From contig NZ_JASNJE010000036.1 in NCBI RefSeq assembly GCF_030164465.1, positions 1-43,567 of the forward strand: a stretch of 43,567 bases of DNA, in the 5' to 3' direction. The notes under the pieces were generated by a model. That model ran no database searches, was not told where the DNA came from, and saw nothing but the letters and a program-made list of their open reading frames with translations. Numbering within the stretch: the first letter of the stretch is position 1; each line of letters begins with the position of its first letter. This document shows, in pieces, positions 10,049 to 17,476 of the stretch. The DNA comes from Sedimentitalea xiamensis (lineage in GTDB: Bacteria > Pseudomonadota > Alphaproteobacteria > Rhodobacterales > Rhodobacteraceae). Made by a program: the position numbers and the translations under genes.

Positions 10049-10969
10049 TCAGGCGGCCTGTTCCCCCTGCCCCGCCTTCGACGCGGCGACGAGATAGTCG
10101 CAGGCGCGCTGCGCATCCGCCGCATGCTTGAAGATCGCCCGCTTGTCCGAGCGAAGCGCCCGCACCCAGTTGTCGAGATAGGCCGCGTTCAGCTCCAGCG
10201 TATGCGCGGAGAACCCAAGCTTCTGACCCAGAAACACCGTGCAGAGCTCGGCCACGATCTCTTCCCGTGCGTAGGCGGTGTTGCCGAACCGCGCATCGCC
10301 ATAGCTGCGGTTGAGACGATGCCGGGGTTTCGTCCAGTGACCCAGCTCGTGCCCCCAGACGGCGTAGAAATTGAGTGGGTTCTCGAAGAGCTCGATCGGC
10401 GGCAGGTAGATCTTGTCGAGTGCGGGAACGTAACAAGCTTCCCGGCCCGAAAAACTGACTGTCGCGCCGACCGCCTCCAAGAAGGCCTGCATATGCGGGA
10501 TCGGAGCGCGTTCGGGATATTCCCGCGCGTCCGGAGGCTCGGGATGGAACCGGGCGTCCAAGCCCTCGATCTGTTCCGCATTGAAGACGCGGTAGGACTT
10601 CATGAAGGGGATCGTTTTGGGATCATCCGTGTCCGCTTCGTCTTCGTGGGCGCCGTCCTCGCTGCCCCGTTCGGTGGTGCCGTAGTAGACGACAACCGAC
10701 GATTTTGAGCCCTTGATGATCTTCGCATCAAGCGCGTTCGCCTGCCTCAGCGTCATCCAGTAGGGCGAGGAATATCCGGCCATCATGGTACGGATGGTCA
10801 GCAGGAAGTTGTTGATGCCCTGGTAGGGCTCGCCGTTCTGGCGGAGGGGCACCGAACTGCCACCGACCCGCCAGGGTTTGCGCCAGGGCAGCACCCCCCG
10901 GTCGATGATCTCGATGAGTTCGTTGGTGATCGACGCTGCGGCGTCGAACCTGGGCTTTGATCTGGCCAT
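10049..10969 (-). CDS. ardC: ArdC-like antirestriction protein (ssDNA-binding plus zincin metallopeptidase)
   Basis: 306 aa. The N-terminal ArdC/DUF1738 domain carries ITNELIEIIDRGVLPWRKPW (about 14-33), NGEPYQGINNFLL and WMTLRQANALDAKIIKGSKSSVVVYYG, the family's single-stranded-DNA-binding core. The C-terminal zincin-like domain has HELGHW (H207, E208, H211), a zinc-binding site, followed by EEIVAELCTVFLGQKLGF. ArdC of IncW plasmids protects incoming single-stranded DNA during conjugation, and this protein probably does the same for its element. The ATG at 10969 is preceded by GGAGA. Leader copy D is about 144 bp upstream. The length matches the family (about 300 aa). Confidence 0.9.
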   Translation of the reverse strand: MARSKPRFDAAASITNELIEIIDRGVLPWRKPWRVGGSSVPLRQNGEPYQGINNFLLTIRTMMAGYSSPYWMTLRQANALDAKIIKGSKSSVVVYYGTTERGSEDGAHEDEADTDDPKTIPFMKSYRVFNAEQIEGLDARFHPEPPDAREYPERAPIPHMQAFLEAVGATVSFSGREACYVPALDKIYLPPIELFENPLNFYAVWGHELGHWTKPRHRLNRSYGDARFGNTAYAREEIVAELCTVFLGQKLGFSAHTLELNAAYLDNWVRALRSDKRAIFKHAADAQRACDYLVAASKAGQGEQAA

Positions 10970-11112
10970 GTGTGGTCTCCGATCTCTGGGGAAGCGCACG
11001 GTAGCCGCGCGCGGATCGAAGGACGGTTTGGGAAAGCAATCCCAATTTGGGGAGAGGCAGGATCCCTTCGGAACCCTGCCAGACCCCTTTCCCGCCTTCT
11101 CCGGATCCAACC

Positions 11113-12744: not shown

Positions 12745-12882
12745 ATGAAAGCAGTTCAGTTCAGTGAGTATGGCGGGCCTGAGGTCCTGAAAGTCGTCGA
12801 GGCCGAGGAACCGCATGCCGGCCCGGGCCAGGTGCGGATCGCCGTCCGGGCGGCCGGGGTTATCCGTGCCATGCTTGTCTGA
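12745..12882 (+). pseudogene. Zinc-type quinone oxidoreductase (MDR) gene truncated after about 39 codons
   Basis: The reading frame MKAVQFSEYGGPEVLKVVEAEEPHAGPGQVRIAVRAAGV is the classic N-terminus of a medium-chain dehydrogenase/quinone oxidoreductase. In the family RAAGV is followed by NPxDWK. Here it runs straight into six foreign codons (IRAMLV) and a TGA. The sequence from about 12862 belongs to an IS5-type transposase on the other strand. AAAGGA precedes the start. About 280 residues are missing, so the gene is dead. Confidence 0.85.
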
Positions 12883-13142
12883 ACACCAGCCGGAGCCACG
12901 GTGGATCTTCAGCCCCATGCTGTCCACGATCAGCGTGATCGGGCCGCTAGTCCCGCAGCCGTCCTGCACGATTTACAACCCTCCGCTCCGCCGCGATAGG
13001 GTTGAGAAATCCGGCCCCGGCCGCGCCATCGTCAAACCAGACCGTCACATCGCCGCGCTTCGTTATACTCGGCCCAGTTCGTGACACGGAACTTCGCCGC
13101 CGCGAACTTGTCCCGGCGTGCGGAATTGAATTTGTGCGGCAT
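12862..13142 (-). pseudogene. IS5-family transposase remnant (degenerate, internally deleted)
   Basis: From ATG at 13142 the minus strand reads MPHKFNSARRDKF...FRVTNWAEYNEA, the N-terminus of IS5/IS427-type transposases. A small deletion then shifts the frame to RGDVTVWFDDGAAGAG. After a large deletion it resumes as GPITLIVDSMGLKIHRGSGWCSDKHGT, the first catalytic-Asp region ('LIVDSTGLK'). The right part of the transposase is gone and the fragment abuts the truncated quinone oxidoreductase at about 12862. It has no intact ends or inverted repeats that I can find, and is a dead relic that marks a rearrangement point. Confidence 0.8.
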
Positions 13143-13515
13143 CCATGCTCAACCCTACCAATGCAGCACGAACCGGTAGCCGACTCCGGTCGTCCGTGCA
13201 ACAAGGTGGGGAATGTCGGTTAAATACTTGTGTAATATCCGAGTTTCGTTTCCGGCTCACGCGCCTTACCCGCGGACGCCGCATCGCGACCGCCCGAACC
13301 TTGGACCTGCGTGCGGCAAGGCGCGGATAAACCTCAAGTTGAACAAAATTCCTTTGTATCGTTAAGTGTCAGCCGCGGGATCAAAGATCCGGCGCGGTCG
13401 GAAAGCTGCTCGCTGCAGGGTTGATTGGATCTGCGATCGCGGGCAACCTGCACGGCAGATATTTCTCCTATGGGATGGCAGGGTATCGTTCTTTCTAGCC
13501 GCGGAGGACCGACTC
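13143..13515. other. Gene-free stretch upstream of the protease-like gene
   Basis: About 370 bp with no gene I can support. It holds a locally AT-rich patch near 13222-13245 and another near 13335-13365, either of which could contain a promoter. The frame of the downstream protein is open back to a GTG at 13366, but the residues encoded there look non-coding in character and the strong ribosome binding site is at 13503-13507. Confidence 0.4.
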
Positions 13516-16197
13516 TTGACGAGCGACGTATTGACCGCCGAACAACGCAGATTCATCGAGACCTTCATTCTGTCCGTCAAGGATCCCGGCTCTGGAGGCG
13601 AGGACGACGTCGAAACGCAGGAATTGGACGTCTCCCTCTTCGGGGACCTGTTCTCTGGCAAGAAAAGCATTTCGACGCTTGAGGGGGCATCCGCGCCCAG
13701 CGTCAAGGAACTTGTCGCCACTGCCGGCAAGACCGGATCGCAGGAACAGGTGAATGACCTGATCGGCAAGTCCGCCGCTGCGCAAGGCGAAGCGAAGGAG
13801 GCCGCCAAGGCGGCGTTTCTCGCGTTCGATCTCGTGACCGGAGGCGGAGAAATCACCAGCAAGCGGCTGACCGGCGCCGACAGCGACTATCAGAAGGCGC
13901 TGAAGGCCGTCGAAAAAGCCAGGGCTTCGCTGATCAAGGCGAAGAACAAGAAGGCCACGGCCAAGGCGACGGAAGAACTCGAAAAGGCCGAGAAGGACGC
14001 AGCCGAGAAGAAGAAGACGGTCGATGCCCTGGTCGGCACCGTGATGCTGAAAAAAGCCCTGACCGACGGACCGCTTTCGGGGAAAGCTGGACCCAAACTC
14101 CCGGACAAGGCCGTCGCGGCCCTGATCGAAGGGTTTCAGGTCAATCCGAAGCTGACCTGGCAGACCATAGACATTGCGGCAACCGCGATCGACCCGACCG
14201 CTGTCGCGAACGCGATCCCGCTTGTTTCCAAACAGATCGAGAACAATTTCGCCGACAAGGATGGCGCCCCGCCGCCGGACGGTTTGGACGTGTCGGCCTA
14301 TGCGATGCAGGTGCTTGCGATGGGCGGAACCTGCGGGCCGGATTACTTTGCCCGTCTCGATGACTATGTCGCTTCCGGCGGGCTGCGGGCCACCGGCGCC
14401 CTGCCGGACGGGTCCGAAGACAGCCCGTCCGCGCGGGGCCAGAAGCGCAGCGTCGCCGTTGCCGGCGCCTTGCTGGACAACGGACGGTTCAATGCCGACA
14501 CCGACAAGTCCAAACTGGCGATCGGACACATGCTGTTCCATCCCGATGCGATGGCGGCGCCCACCCCCGCGCTCAATGCCCATGTCCTTGAAACGCTGCA
14601 TGTCTTCACCGATGGCGACGATGCGACGGATGCCAACGATGTCCTGGAGGGCGTGGATGCGCCCAGCACGGATGCGGGCAAGCTGCTGGTCGGCAGATCC
14701 GTCGGCACCGAGGGGACGCCGACAAAGACCGAGACCCAGACCGCCATCCTGGCCAGCATGCTGCAATCGGTCGACCAGGGACCGGTCGGGTCGTGTTTTG
14801 CCACGGCACCGCTGCGCAACATGCGCGAATCCGATCCATTGACCACGCTCAAGAAATTCCGCGAGATCACTGAAGACGGCACCTTTACCAGCGGCGACGG
14901 CACCAAGACCCAGGTGGTCACCAACCTGCCGCCGGGCGAAGACCCCTTGATCCGCTGTCTCGAATACAGCATCGCCACCGCCATGGGGCGCAACGATGCG
15001 ATGAGCCTCAAGAAGGATATCGGCAACAAGGCCCAGACGGCGACATATCACCTTCAGGAAGAGCTGAAGAAGACGCTTGATCCGACTCATGTGGGGAATT
15101 CCAGCGTCAGAGCTCTGACGGCGATCAAGACCGGGTTCACGACGACCTATGATCCCATGGTCGAAAACCCTTCGACAGCGTCCGATGGCCACAGTTCCCG
15201 CGGCCGCTATGTGCTGGTGGCCACCGACGGCACCGTCATCGAAAGCCGCGAGAAATACCGCGACAAGGTTCTTGAAATGACCCTGACCGCCTTTGGCGAC
15301 CCGTCCGAGGAGAGCGAGCGCCAGGCGATCGAAAAGGTCGTGGACGATCATTACATGAAGAGCATGGACGACCTGCTGAACACGGACCCGCCCGGCAATC
15401 CGCCCTGGCTGCTGAAATCCGGCGGCAGCTTCGTCGAATCCCTGACCACGATCCACGGCAACACCAACCCGGTCACCGCCCTGGCGAAATCCTCGGAACT
15501 GTCGGACACGCCGGAAAAGATCGGCGCCCGCACCACGGCGGTTCTGGGCGGTCTGATCGACAATCTCGGCGACGCGCCGCCGGACATGCTGCTCGTGCAG
15601 ACACCCGGCGTGCACGGGTTCAACTTGTTGCCGAACCATCCGACGATGAAGGCATTGATGGATGGCGACGGGACCACCGCCGACAAGATCAGGACAAAGC
15701 TTACCGAACCTGGCGCGCGAATCGCGACCACCGCGCTCGATCTGGACGAAACCCTGCGGCAATATGATCGCTGTATCGCGAAAATCGCCGAGGTGTACCA
15801 GGGTCTCGTCGACGATCCCAAACGGGAGGAAGATTCTGTCAAGCGCTACCGGAAACGTCTGTCGCAGTTTCAGAAGGCTGCAAGGAAAATGAGGCCGGAG
15901 GCTGGCATGCGTCCCAAGATGATCGCGGAACTCTGCGAGGGGATTGGGACAGACGGTCTGAACGTGGACTATGTGAAAGGCGCACTGCAGGGGACGCTGG
16001 CCAGCGGTCTTTCCGACCCGCAGGTTGTGTTGGCGGACACCAATTGGGGGAGCGGAGAGGACCACACGTTCTTTGTCGTGGCGCCTGATCCGATCAGTGG
16101 AAAACCCATGCTGTGGCAGCGTACGGATCCACCGGGGTCGATGCGGCTCGCGCCGTCCAAGGACTGGATCGACCGCGAATGGCAAATCATGAAATAG
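13516..16197 (+). CDS. Large uncharacterised protein with papain-like cysteine protease signature
   Basis: 893 aa from a TTG start at 13516, chosen because GGAGG lies 8 nt upstream and MTSDVLTAEQRRFIETFIL then starts a plausible helix. I do not recognise the family. Residues about 121-175 are a Lys/Glu/Ala-rich predicted coiled coil. At 420-430 is DQGPVGSCFAT, very like the papain oxyanion/nucleophile motif DQGxCGSCWA, giving Gln421 and Cys427. Near the C-terminus ADTNWGSGEDHTFFVVAPDP (840-859) supplies a candidate His850 and nearby Asp858 or Asp871. That order (Q...C...H...D/N) is what papain-fold enzymes use. There is no signal peptide or membrane segment. It resembles large effector- or toxin-like proteases in general layout. 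It is followed after 15 bp by a small acidic protein gene, probably co-transcribed. Its flanks (IS5 relic and OLD fragment) mark it as acquired cargo. Confidence 0.65.
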   Translation: MTSDVLTAEQRRFIETFILSVKDPGSGGEDDVETQELDVSLFGDLFSGKKSISTLEGASAPSVKELVATAGKTGSQEQVNDLIGKSAAAQGEAKEAAKAAFLAFDLVTGGGEITSKRLTGADSDYQKALKAVEKARASLIKAKNKKATAKATEELEKAEKDAAEKKKTVDALVGTVMLKKALTDGPLSGKAGPKLPDKAVAALIEGFQVNPKLTWQTIDIAATAIDPTAVANAIPLVSKQIENNFADKDGAPPPDGLDVSAYAMQVLAMGGTCGPDYFARLDDYVASGGLRATGALPDGSEDSPSARGQKRSVAVAGALLDNGRFNADTDKSKLAIGHMLFHPDAMAAPTPALNAHVLETLHVFTDGDDATDANDVLEGVDAPSTDAGKLLVGRSVGTEGTPTKTETQTAILASMLQSVDQGPVGSCFATAPLRNMRESDPLTTLKKFREITEDGTFTSGDGTKTQVVTNLPPGEDPLIRCLEYSIATAMGRNDAMSLKKDIGNKAQTATYHLQEELKKTLDPTHVGNSSVRALTAIKTGFTTTYDPMVENPSTASDGHSSRGRYVLVATDGTVIESREKYRDKVLEMTLTAFGDPSEESERQAIEKVVDDHYMKSMDDLLNTDPPGNPPWLLKSGGSFVESLTTIHGNTNPVTALAKSSELSDTPEKIGARTTAVLGGLIDNLGDAPPDMLLVQTPGVHGFNLLPNHPTMKALMDGDGTTADKIRTKLTEPGARIATTALDLDETLRQYDRCIAKIAEVYQGLVDDPKREEDSVKRYRKRLSQFQKAARKMRPEAGMRPKMIAELCEGIGTDGLNVDYVKGALQGTLASGLSDPQVVLADTNWGSGEDHTFFVVAPDPISGKPMLWQRTDPPGSMRLAPSKDWIDREWQIMK

Positions 16198-16212
16198 GCC
16201 GGGAGACTGACC

Positions 16213-16743
16213 ATGGCAGACAGTATTGCGTATCAACTGGCCGAGACCGGACCAGTCGTCGTCATCAACGACAGCGAGCAAGTATCGACACGGGCGAGCT
16301 TGCAGGCGCGGGCGCCCGATGTTCCGGCCGCCGACTTGGCCGAAGCGCTGATGGTCCTGGAGGACGGATCCTATCGTTTGATCCTCGATCAGAAACGGTT
16401 CGAGGACGATTATCGCAAGCGGCTCGCCTCGGAGGACCCCGACCAGCCCTGGCAGCAGAACGTATTCCGGTTGCGCGATTTCGGCACGCCCGATTTCGAT
16501 ACGATCGCCAGTCCCGCGCGAGAGGGCGATGCGCTTACGTTCCATGTGGCGGATACGGTGACGGGATTGCCCTATCTGGTCACCGTCACACTGGGAACCG
16601 AGACCGACCCGGATTATGAACCGCTGCCCCTGACGCCGGTCTCCGATACCGCGCCGCCCGTGCCGCCAGAGATGTCACGCGCGGCGCTTGGCCCGGTCGG
16701 CGACGAGGATCCGGCGATGGATACGGACGACGGGGAGGAGTAG
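16213..16743 (+). CDS. Small acidic hypothetical protein paired with the protease-like gene
   Basis: 176 aa starting MADSIAYQLAETGPVVVINDSEQVSTRASLQAR; GGGAGA precedes the ATG. No known family is recognised. The body contains PWQQNVFRLRDFGTPDFDTIAS and a beta-rich ALTFHVADTVTGLPYLVTVTLG segment. The last 40 residues are proline-rich, then strongly acidic (DEDPAMDTDDGEE). There is no signal peptide. It lies 15 bp after the large protease-like gene in the same direction, so it is a candidate chaperone, inhibitor, immunity protein or substrate of that protein. That is inference from position and charge only. Confidence 0.6.
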   Translation: MADSIAYQLAETGPVVVINDSEQVSTRASLQARAPDVPAADLAEALMVLEDGSYRLILDQKRFEDDYRKRLASEDPDQPWQQNVFRLRDFGTPDFDTIASPAREGDALTFHVADTVTGLPYLVTVTLGTETDPDYEPLPLTPVSDTAPPVPPEMSRAALGPVGDEDPAMDTDDGEE

Positions 16744-17065: not shown

Positions 17066-17476
17066 TCACGCCGCACCCTCCCCGCCCTTCAGCTGGCCTG
17101 CGAGCCAAGTCAGGCCAGTGTTGATATAGGGCGGCGCGCGCAGCGTTTTAATGTCCTCAATATAAAGGAGGTCCAGTGCGAAGGCAGCCTTTTCCGGTTT
17201 TTTTGCCAACCGATCAAAGAGCGCTTTGGCGAGGTCTTCAGGGTCCTGAGCCTCAGCGATGAATTCGGCAAAGGCACGGGTCATGCGGCAGGAAAGCTCT
17301 GCCGCTGCGGCGTCCGTCACGGCTTTTGGGTTGGTGAGGACAAGAGCATCCTCGAAGGTGCTGGGCACGATGGTCTGGGTCTGCTCACCCTGCGTCACCT
17401 CTTGCGGGGTCTGATAGGCGACAGCGATTGGGCGGGCGGCATCGGTATGACAGAGTGTATTTGGCGGCGCGGCCAT
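17066..17476 (-). pseudogene. C-terminal fragment of an OLD-family ATP-dependent nuclease
   Basis: About 130 residues. AVAYQTPQEV, TIVPSTFEDALVLTNPKAV, PEDLAKALFDRLAKKPEKAAFALDLLYIEDIKTLRAPPYINTGLTWLAGQL matches the end of OLD-type proteins, in which a TOPRIM domain is followed by 'TFEDA...KAEFALDLL....P.YI..GL.WL'. The ATPase domain and most of the TOPRIM region (over 450 residues) are missing. No good ribosome binding site precedes it, so it is a remnant. OLD nucleases include phage-defence enzymes such as P2 Old and GajA, so a defence gene may once have stood here. It ends about 400 bp from the protease cassette and begins 20 bp beyond the racemase stop. Confidence 0.65.

Follow-up and report, generated by a model that had tools for sequence, protein, structure and literature searches.

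A paired gene cassette of Sedimentitalea xiamensis encoding a predicted papain-like cysteine protease and an acidic partner, a candidate type VI secretion cargo

The window analyzed here, the 43,567 nucleotides of contig NZ_JASNJE010000036.1 from Sedimentitalea xiamensis, carries a cassette of two genes whose products fall below every Pfam and NCBIfam cut-off. The large gene (13516..16197, + strand, TTG start) encodes a predicted papain-like cysteine protease of 893 amino acids with a helical, coiled-coil N-terminal part, and the small gene (16213..16743, +) follows after a gap of 15 bp and encodes an acidic partner of 176 amino acids. Both frames and the gap, described in an initial annotation of the sequence, were verified, as was the acidity of the small protein, with 30 partners having isoelectric points of 4.05-5.66 (median 4.09); partner lengths range from 144 to 206 amino acids. 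The same annotation placed the pair in no recognised family, which holds for Pfam, NCBIfam and PADLOC (known anti-phage defence systems) but not for relatives, these being common, in Rhodobacteraceae, one Pelomonas, one Chthoniobacter and many Chlamydiota. The reading favoured here, tentatively and somewhat short of an even chance, is that the cassette is a cargo effector of the type VI secretion system (T6SS) composed of a papain-like cysteine protease and a dedicated chaperone or inhibitor.

Residue conservation was counted in 33 homologues (L040 and L044 set aside) and 17 chlamydial relatives, giving 50 sequences. Seventeen of 18 chlamydial proteins were aligned from the Q..G.CF motif, the pattern excluding L080 (HRQGNSADCFA at the Cys motif), so that their Gln and Cys follow from the way the sequences were chosen, which does not apply to their His, Asn and Trp. 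Gln421, Cys427, His700, Asn843 and Trp844 are invariant in 50/50, and a separate alignment of 39 cores gives identical invariants; Asp841 is present in 33/33 homologues and 12/17 chlamydial sequences. The motif QGPVGSC from Gln421 to Cys427 is encoded at 14776..14796 (+; Cys427 codon 14794-14796), His700 within HGFN at 15613..15615 (+) and D841-T-N843-W844 at 16036..16047 (+). The aligned His is less sure in the chlamydial rows L073, L075, L084 and L085 because an HxF[NSTG]-like pattern is unseen there in the expected region. The initial annotation had correctly identified DQGPVGSCFAT with Cys427, and had ended its Gln-Cys-His signature at His850 (codon 16063..16065, +) in TNWGSGEDHTFFVV; that sequence is present, but His850 is a His in only 24/33 homologues and 0/17 chlamydial relatives, so that it was rejected as a catalytic residue and the Cys427/His850 pair falls under the refuting condition that the initial annotation had set for it, homologues without one of the two residues. 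What stands of the proposed protease with a small partner is the ordered Gln, Cys, His and Asn-Trp invariants and the neighbouring gene, without His850 and without a fold match. From the alignment, Cys427 is predicted to be the nucleophile, Gln421 the oxyanion residue, His700 the general base and Asn843 the third catalytic residue.

The AlphaFold model of the large protein, built on a 35-sequence alignment, has a predicted local distance difference test (pLDDT) score of 88.0 and a predicted template modelling score of 0.85, with a pLDDT of only 35-51 over residues 1-70. In the model Cys427 opens helix 427-439, His700 opens strand 700-704 and Asn843 is close to where strand 837-845 ends. The coiled coil annotated near residues 121-175 agrees with two long helices, 115-141 and 145-183 (13858..14064, +), and the VIA structure search with the full-length model as query was dominated by it, with mostly coiled coils and helical chains returned over this part, and did not confirm a papain fold. 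The small protein (pLDDT 89.9) is modelled as an α+β domain to approximately residue 140 with a less certain tail. The large protein shares with the papain-like proteases of clan CA (C1 papain, C2 calpain) the Q-x5-C spacing, which in papain is Q19 and C25, a His on a later strand and an Asn next to Trp-Gly. The Cys of papain also sits at a helix N terminus, and hhalign puts the Cys motif on that of papain (probability 5%, P 0.007). Differences from papain are the 273 residues that separate Cys from His here and the 143 that separate His from Asn, taken up mostly by helices, an adjacent N-W-G in place of N-S-W-G, and no significant profile or fold match to papain-like proteases. By its ordered Gln, Cys, His and Asn the large protein is a predicted papain-like cysteine protease with large helical insertions, for which protease activity would be expected; the model does not prove a papain fold. 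The available part of a papain-like protein classification (PMC10318531) shows no comparable family from Chlamydiota or Rhodobacter, and the main text of a bacterial calpain survey (PMC4631099) has no mention of Chlamyd-, Rhodobacter or Roseobacter.

The pairing of the two genes is consistent. The small gene lies directly downstream of the large one in 34/34 loci with readable downstream DNA, as the initial annotation would predict for a genuine pair. Relatives occur in 5/121 near genomes and 11/390 genomes of the order, own genome included in each count; large and small genes are confined to the identical 11 genomes, G000 and G423 each having two large-gene and two small-gene loci, and no orphan small gene was found in the other 379. 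The second large gene of the own genome (G000, 4.75 Mb), on contig C26, is 33% identical to the first and has its own partner. Pairwise identities of the large and small proteins co-vary (Mantel r 0.79, 0/5000 permutations, 29 loci), with a median of 36% for the small protein and 31% for the protease core. A genome-contig collection gave 29 loci, mostly from Rhodobacteraceae, with single loci from Pelomonas, Chthoniobacter (where the large gene is broken into two frames) and Chlamydiia (truncated by the contig end). The Chthoniobacter phylum (194 genomes) and the Pelomonas order (200 genomes) gave no match beyond the query genomes themselves. The carriers are spread patchily, in differing neighbourhoods. 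Among the best 40 neighbour-gene clusters no conserved operon beyond the pair was seen; the clusters besides the partner comprise antisense frames of the cassette genes themselves, ABC transporters and flanks common to close relatives, with a coiled-coil gene beside the cassette in a few loci. A larger operon was dropped from consideration as only the partner recurs as a true neighbour, and phage or plasmid cargo was dropped as phage, plasmid and viral-contig collections hold no relative of the large protein.

The carriers also share a T6SS. With PF05943 as the tssC marker in the 390 order genomes and hypergeometric P values, TssC is found in 112 genomes including 11/11 carriers (P 7.6e-7, or 2.8e-6 for the ten carriers without G376), in 9/9 carrier genera against 57/140 (P 2e-4), and as at least two TssC-like matches in 11/11 carriers against 51/390 genomes (P 9e-5 within T6SS-positive genomes), all of these values being optimistic because the carriers are akin. 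TssC is also present in G002, G003 and G004, in the Pelomonas and Chthoniobacter carriers, and in the same-genus non-carrier G001. The second TssC-like match in G000 is a frame of 1192 amino acids with VipA and VipB domains, and among the matches listed, the second match in 8/11 carriers lies in frames of 1198-1781 amino acids. The G000 protein (L117:13110-16688, - strand, G000:C17) has TssB (VipA) at its N terminus, a TssC (VipB) domain near its C terminus and a long acidic, repeat-like middle (..DDFDLDDLLSEP..).

A further link to secretion is provided by the N termini of the sister proteins. A module of ~115 amino acids heads 15/30 large homologues, 9 of those outside its profile-building set, as well as stand-alone proteins adjoining cassettes in L018, L019 and L039 and a 457-amino acid protein divergent from tssA in G000. 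In a survey of 20 further T6SS stretches together with G000, the module is found beside tssA in 12/15 Rhodobacteraceae clusters with two TssC-like genes and in 0/4 with one, and is not in the Pelomonas and Chthoniobacter T6SS stretches. The tssA-side version can be little more than the module itself, with 114-132 amino acids in G188 and G423 and 144 in G030. The T6SS-cluster protein divergent from tssA, with the module N-terminal, is encoded at L110:9002-10375 (+) with equivalents in L119-L124, L126 and L129-L132; this protein and the other module-bearing proteins have no Pfam match over the module. The N-terminal module of the sisters also turns up in six plasmid records. Two Leisingera plasmids (L107:395-6681, L108:7974-14235) encode proteins of 1844-1848 amino acids that begin with the ~115-amino acid module, have a zincin-like HEVGH motif in the C-terminal part and are followed by a CpXC gene; the shared module with another C terminus and another neighbour is like that of modular effectors, and these proteins with CpXC possibly form a second effector-partner pair. 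T6SS marker-domain effectors (MIX and alike) place one N-terminal module before varied C-terminal domains. The ~115-amino acid module likewise precedes different C-terminal domains and, unlike MIX-type modules, has no Pfam match and is also encoded nearly alone; the window protein itself, again unlike MIX-type effectors, does not carry it.

Another N-terminal module of 75 amino acids, termed type B, begins 11/30 large homologues and forms a separate upstream frame in two more. The segment LTAEQRRFIETFI (13531..13569, +) of the window protein looks by eye like the start of type B and was not found by the leave-out profile. The first match of the window protein (E 1.9e-14) arose by construction because the protein was in the profile, and with it left out none was obtained at E 10, so that its membership of type B was dropped. 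The leave-out test was passed by the separate frame of L039 (E 4.6e-13) and by L017, which was never in the profile (E 2e-20), with the separate frame of L011 weak (E 0.0012).

The relatives extend into the Chlamydiota, where 108/151 genomes match the Chlamydiia protein L044, many weakly. These proteins have a homologous core with the same invariant residues, and a partner-like gene is found in 8/15 fetched loci (L069-L083; L069 reaches the contig end), directly or one gene downstream, with partner-profile E values of 3.5e-28 to 2.3e-9. They differ from the cassette in that no TssC is found in 10/10 genomes tested, neither N-terminal module was detected in the loci searched, and three loci of a ~985-amino acid type (L084-L086) have no partner within the stretches examined. 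The ~985-amino acid relatives contain QNVGSCFA and DTNW, with similar weak matches in many Chlamydiota, and in L085 and L086 a threonyl-tRNA-synthetase-like gene (by eye) lies beside them. Nine scanned chlamydial proteins are under every Pfam or NCBIfam cut-off.

In the window the large frame stays open upstream to GTG 13366, an alternative start that would give 943 amino acids. TTG 13516 is the better start because a Shine-Dalgarno-like GGAGG (13503..13507, +) lies 8 nt before it and because of the homologue starts, a similar LTxxQ..F motif being seen by eye a few residues after the start in several large homologues; the longer form was dropped on the same grounds. The IS5 relic of the initial annotation is confirmed upstream as two pieces of an IS5-family transposase (12865-12948 and 13021-13144, no strand assigned), with 70-79% identity to copies on plasmids. 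This relic truncates what looks by eye like the beginning of a zinc-type alcohol dehydrogenase-like gene (12745-12880, +). Downstream, the annotated OLD-nuclease fragment is present as the remnant of an AAA-family ATPase gene (17066..17476, -, 136 amino acids) with a 76-79% match to AAA-ATPase genes of three Rhodobacterales plasmids; its Pfam scan is empty and the name OLD nuclease was not confirmed. Two of the plasmid relatives have a UvrD-helicase annotation as well in the matched region, an AAA-ATPase and UvrD-helicase order like that of Gabija-like defence systems. To the left of the cassette, an ArdC-type anti-restriction protein with a zincin domain (10049-11110, -; PF08401, PF18818) lies in mobile-element surroundings, with a ParB-like gene and a DUF3768 gene near it.

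If the cassette is a T6SS cargo effector, the large protein would act as a protease through the residues predicted above, and its variable N-terminal helical part, headed in many sisters by a T6SS-encoded module, would link it to the secretion system. Within the producing cell the small acidic protein would bind its large partner, holding it in a soluble, inactive state until firing. Targets may be eukaryotic (protist grazers or hosts) and not only rival bacteria, since the partner resembles an obligate subunit more than a spreading immunity gene and Chlamydiota without a T6SS retain the pair. Because no module is recognised in the window protein, its own delivery route would have to be read solely from its sisters and from co-occurrence.

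A number of results weigh against this reading. The window protein lacks the ~115-amino acid T6SS-linked module in a profile search, and its N terminus, once left out, matches no module profile, the type B likeness being by eye only. The tssA-side module is missing in 3/15 of the two-TssC clusters, all of them from carriers (G278, G335, G362), and type B is not in the 20 T6SS stretches or the own-genome cluster. In a Qingshengfaniella plasmid (L106:1246-17239) the ~115-amino acid module, in a protein of 429 amino acids, is directly behind type I secretion genes; the genes that come after it encode two large proteins (939 and 1022 amino acids), both uncharacterised. No T6SS gene was found in 30 cassette loci with 11 own-genome query proteins (TssE, TssJ, TssK and PAAR not searched), and blastp with the Hcp and VgrG of the own genome places hcp or vgrG beside the cassette in 0/30 loci. 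Many known T6SS effectors are encoded away from hcp, vgrG or PAAR genes. The lack of TssC in Chlamydiota and the kinship of the carriers count on the same side, and for G376, counted among the 11 carriers, there are only weak fragments 35 kb apart. For the protease itself, Foldseek with the large-protein model matched no solved fold (best E 0.33), a profile search of the PDB gave nothing relevant, and the Cys motif alone was aligned with papain by hhalign.

The cassette could instead be an antibacterial T6SS toxin with its cognate immunity protein, the protease harming rivals and the small protein shielding the producer. Papain-like T6SS or contact-dependent growth inhibition toxins with adjacent immunity genes are described, in the available part of PMC12136450, as Cpe1-Cpi1, EvpQ and TsaP. 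Their N-terminal parts are of the PAAR, VgrG, Rhs or CdiA kind and their domain comes closest to ComA and LahT, which are transporter peptidases; as far as that account goes they are functionally nearest to the cassette. Cpe1-Cpi1 shares with it a small partner gene behind the gene for the cysteine protease and the T6SS association, here 11/11 carriers, and the acidic partner of 144-206 amino acids adjoins in every readable locus. Going by these descriptions, the cassette is set apart by other N-terminal parts, a core of ~500 residues and a partner that occurs on its own in none of the 390 genomes. The small protein is also as conserved as the core, unlike the immunity proteins of Cpe1-type toxins, for which the same part of PMC12136450 reports considerable divergence, and a partner-like gene occurs in Chlamydiota relatives. 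These points leave a classic toxin and immunity pair doubtful. The lack of orphan partners, the equal conservation and the chlamydial relatives incline us, as a lean and not as proof, to a partner that is obligate and to targets that may be eukaryotic, over a classic immunity gene.

An undelivered house-keeping or regulatory protease complex, with the small protein as subunit or inhibitor and the T6SS link as a by-product of genome type, would account for the lack of T6SS genes near cassettes, for Chlamydiota relatives without a T6SS and in some cases without a partner gene nearby, and for a window protein with no recognised delivery module. It is unlikely given the co-occurrence of all 11 carriers with a T6SS and two TssC-like genes, the patchy spread in differing neighbourhoods and the N-terminal module that the sisters have in common with the tssA-side protein. 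The IS5 relic, the AAA-ATPase remnant and, left of the cassette, the ArdC-like gene and the ParB-like one would fit an anti-phage or conflict system in an island, with a protease activated by infection and inhibited by its partner, but this is very improbable, as phage, plasmid and viral-contig collections hold no relative of the large protein and the T6SS association would be left unexplained; the PADLOC test against listed defence proteins gave no match for the cassette, and a known defence system was rejected.

The T6SS cargo effector with an obligate chaperone or inhibitor thus stays the preferred reading. In a wider and more speculative form, possible though itself improbable on balance, the ancient pair would be an interchangeable injected unit, which free-living T6SS bacteria would fire through a T6SS with a second TssC-like protein (the TssB-TssC fusion in the window genome), in many cases with a new N-terminal docking module also made nearly alone beside tssA, and which Chlamydiota would presumably deliver by their own route. 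This wider form, if true, would bring together three novelties: an effector family, a chaperone or inhibitor family and a cargo module of the T6SS. If the preferred reading is right, a family found in 108/151 Chlamydiota and scattered Rhodobacteraceae, whose tested members have no Pfam or NCBIfam match, would gain a testable function as a papain-like enzyme whose catalytic residues are named and whose partner is obligate. The module made nearly alone beside tssA would give a way to study the loading of large coiled-coil cargo by one kind of T6SS, and the cassette would provide a link between proteins of free-living bacteria and their relatives in Chlamydiota.

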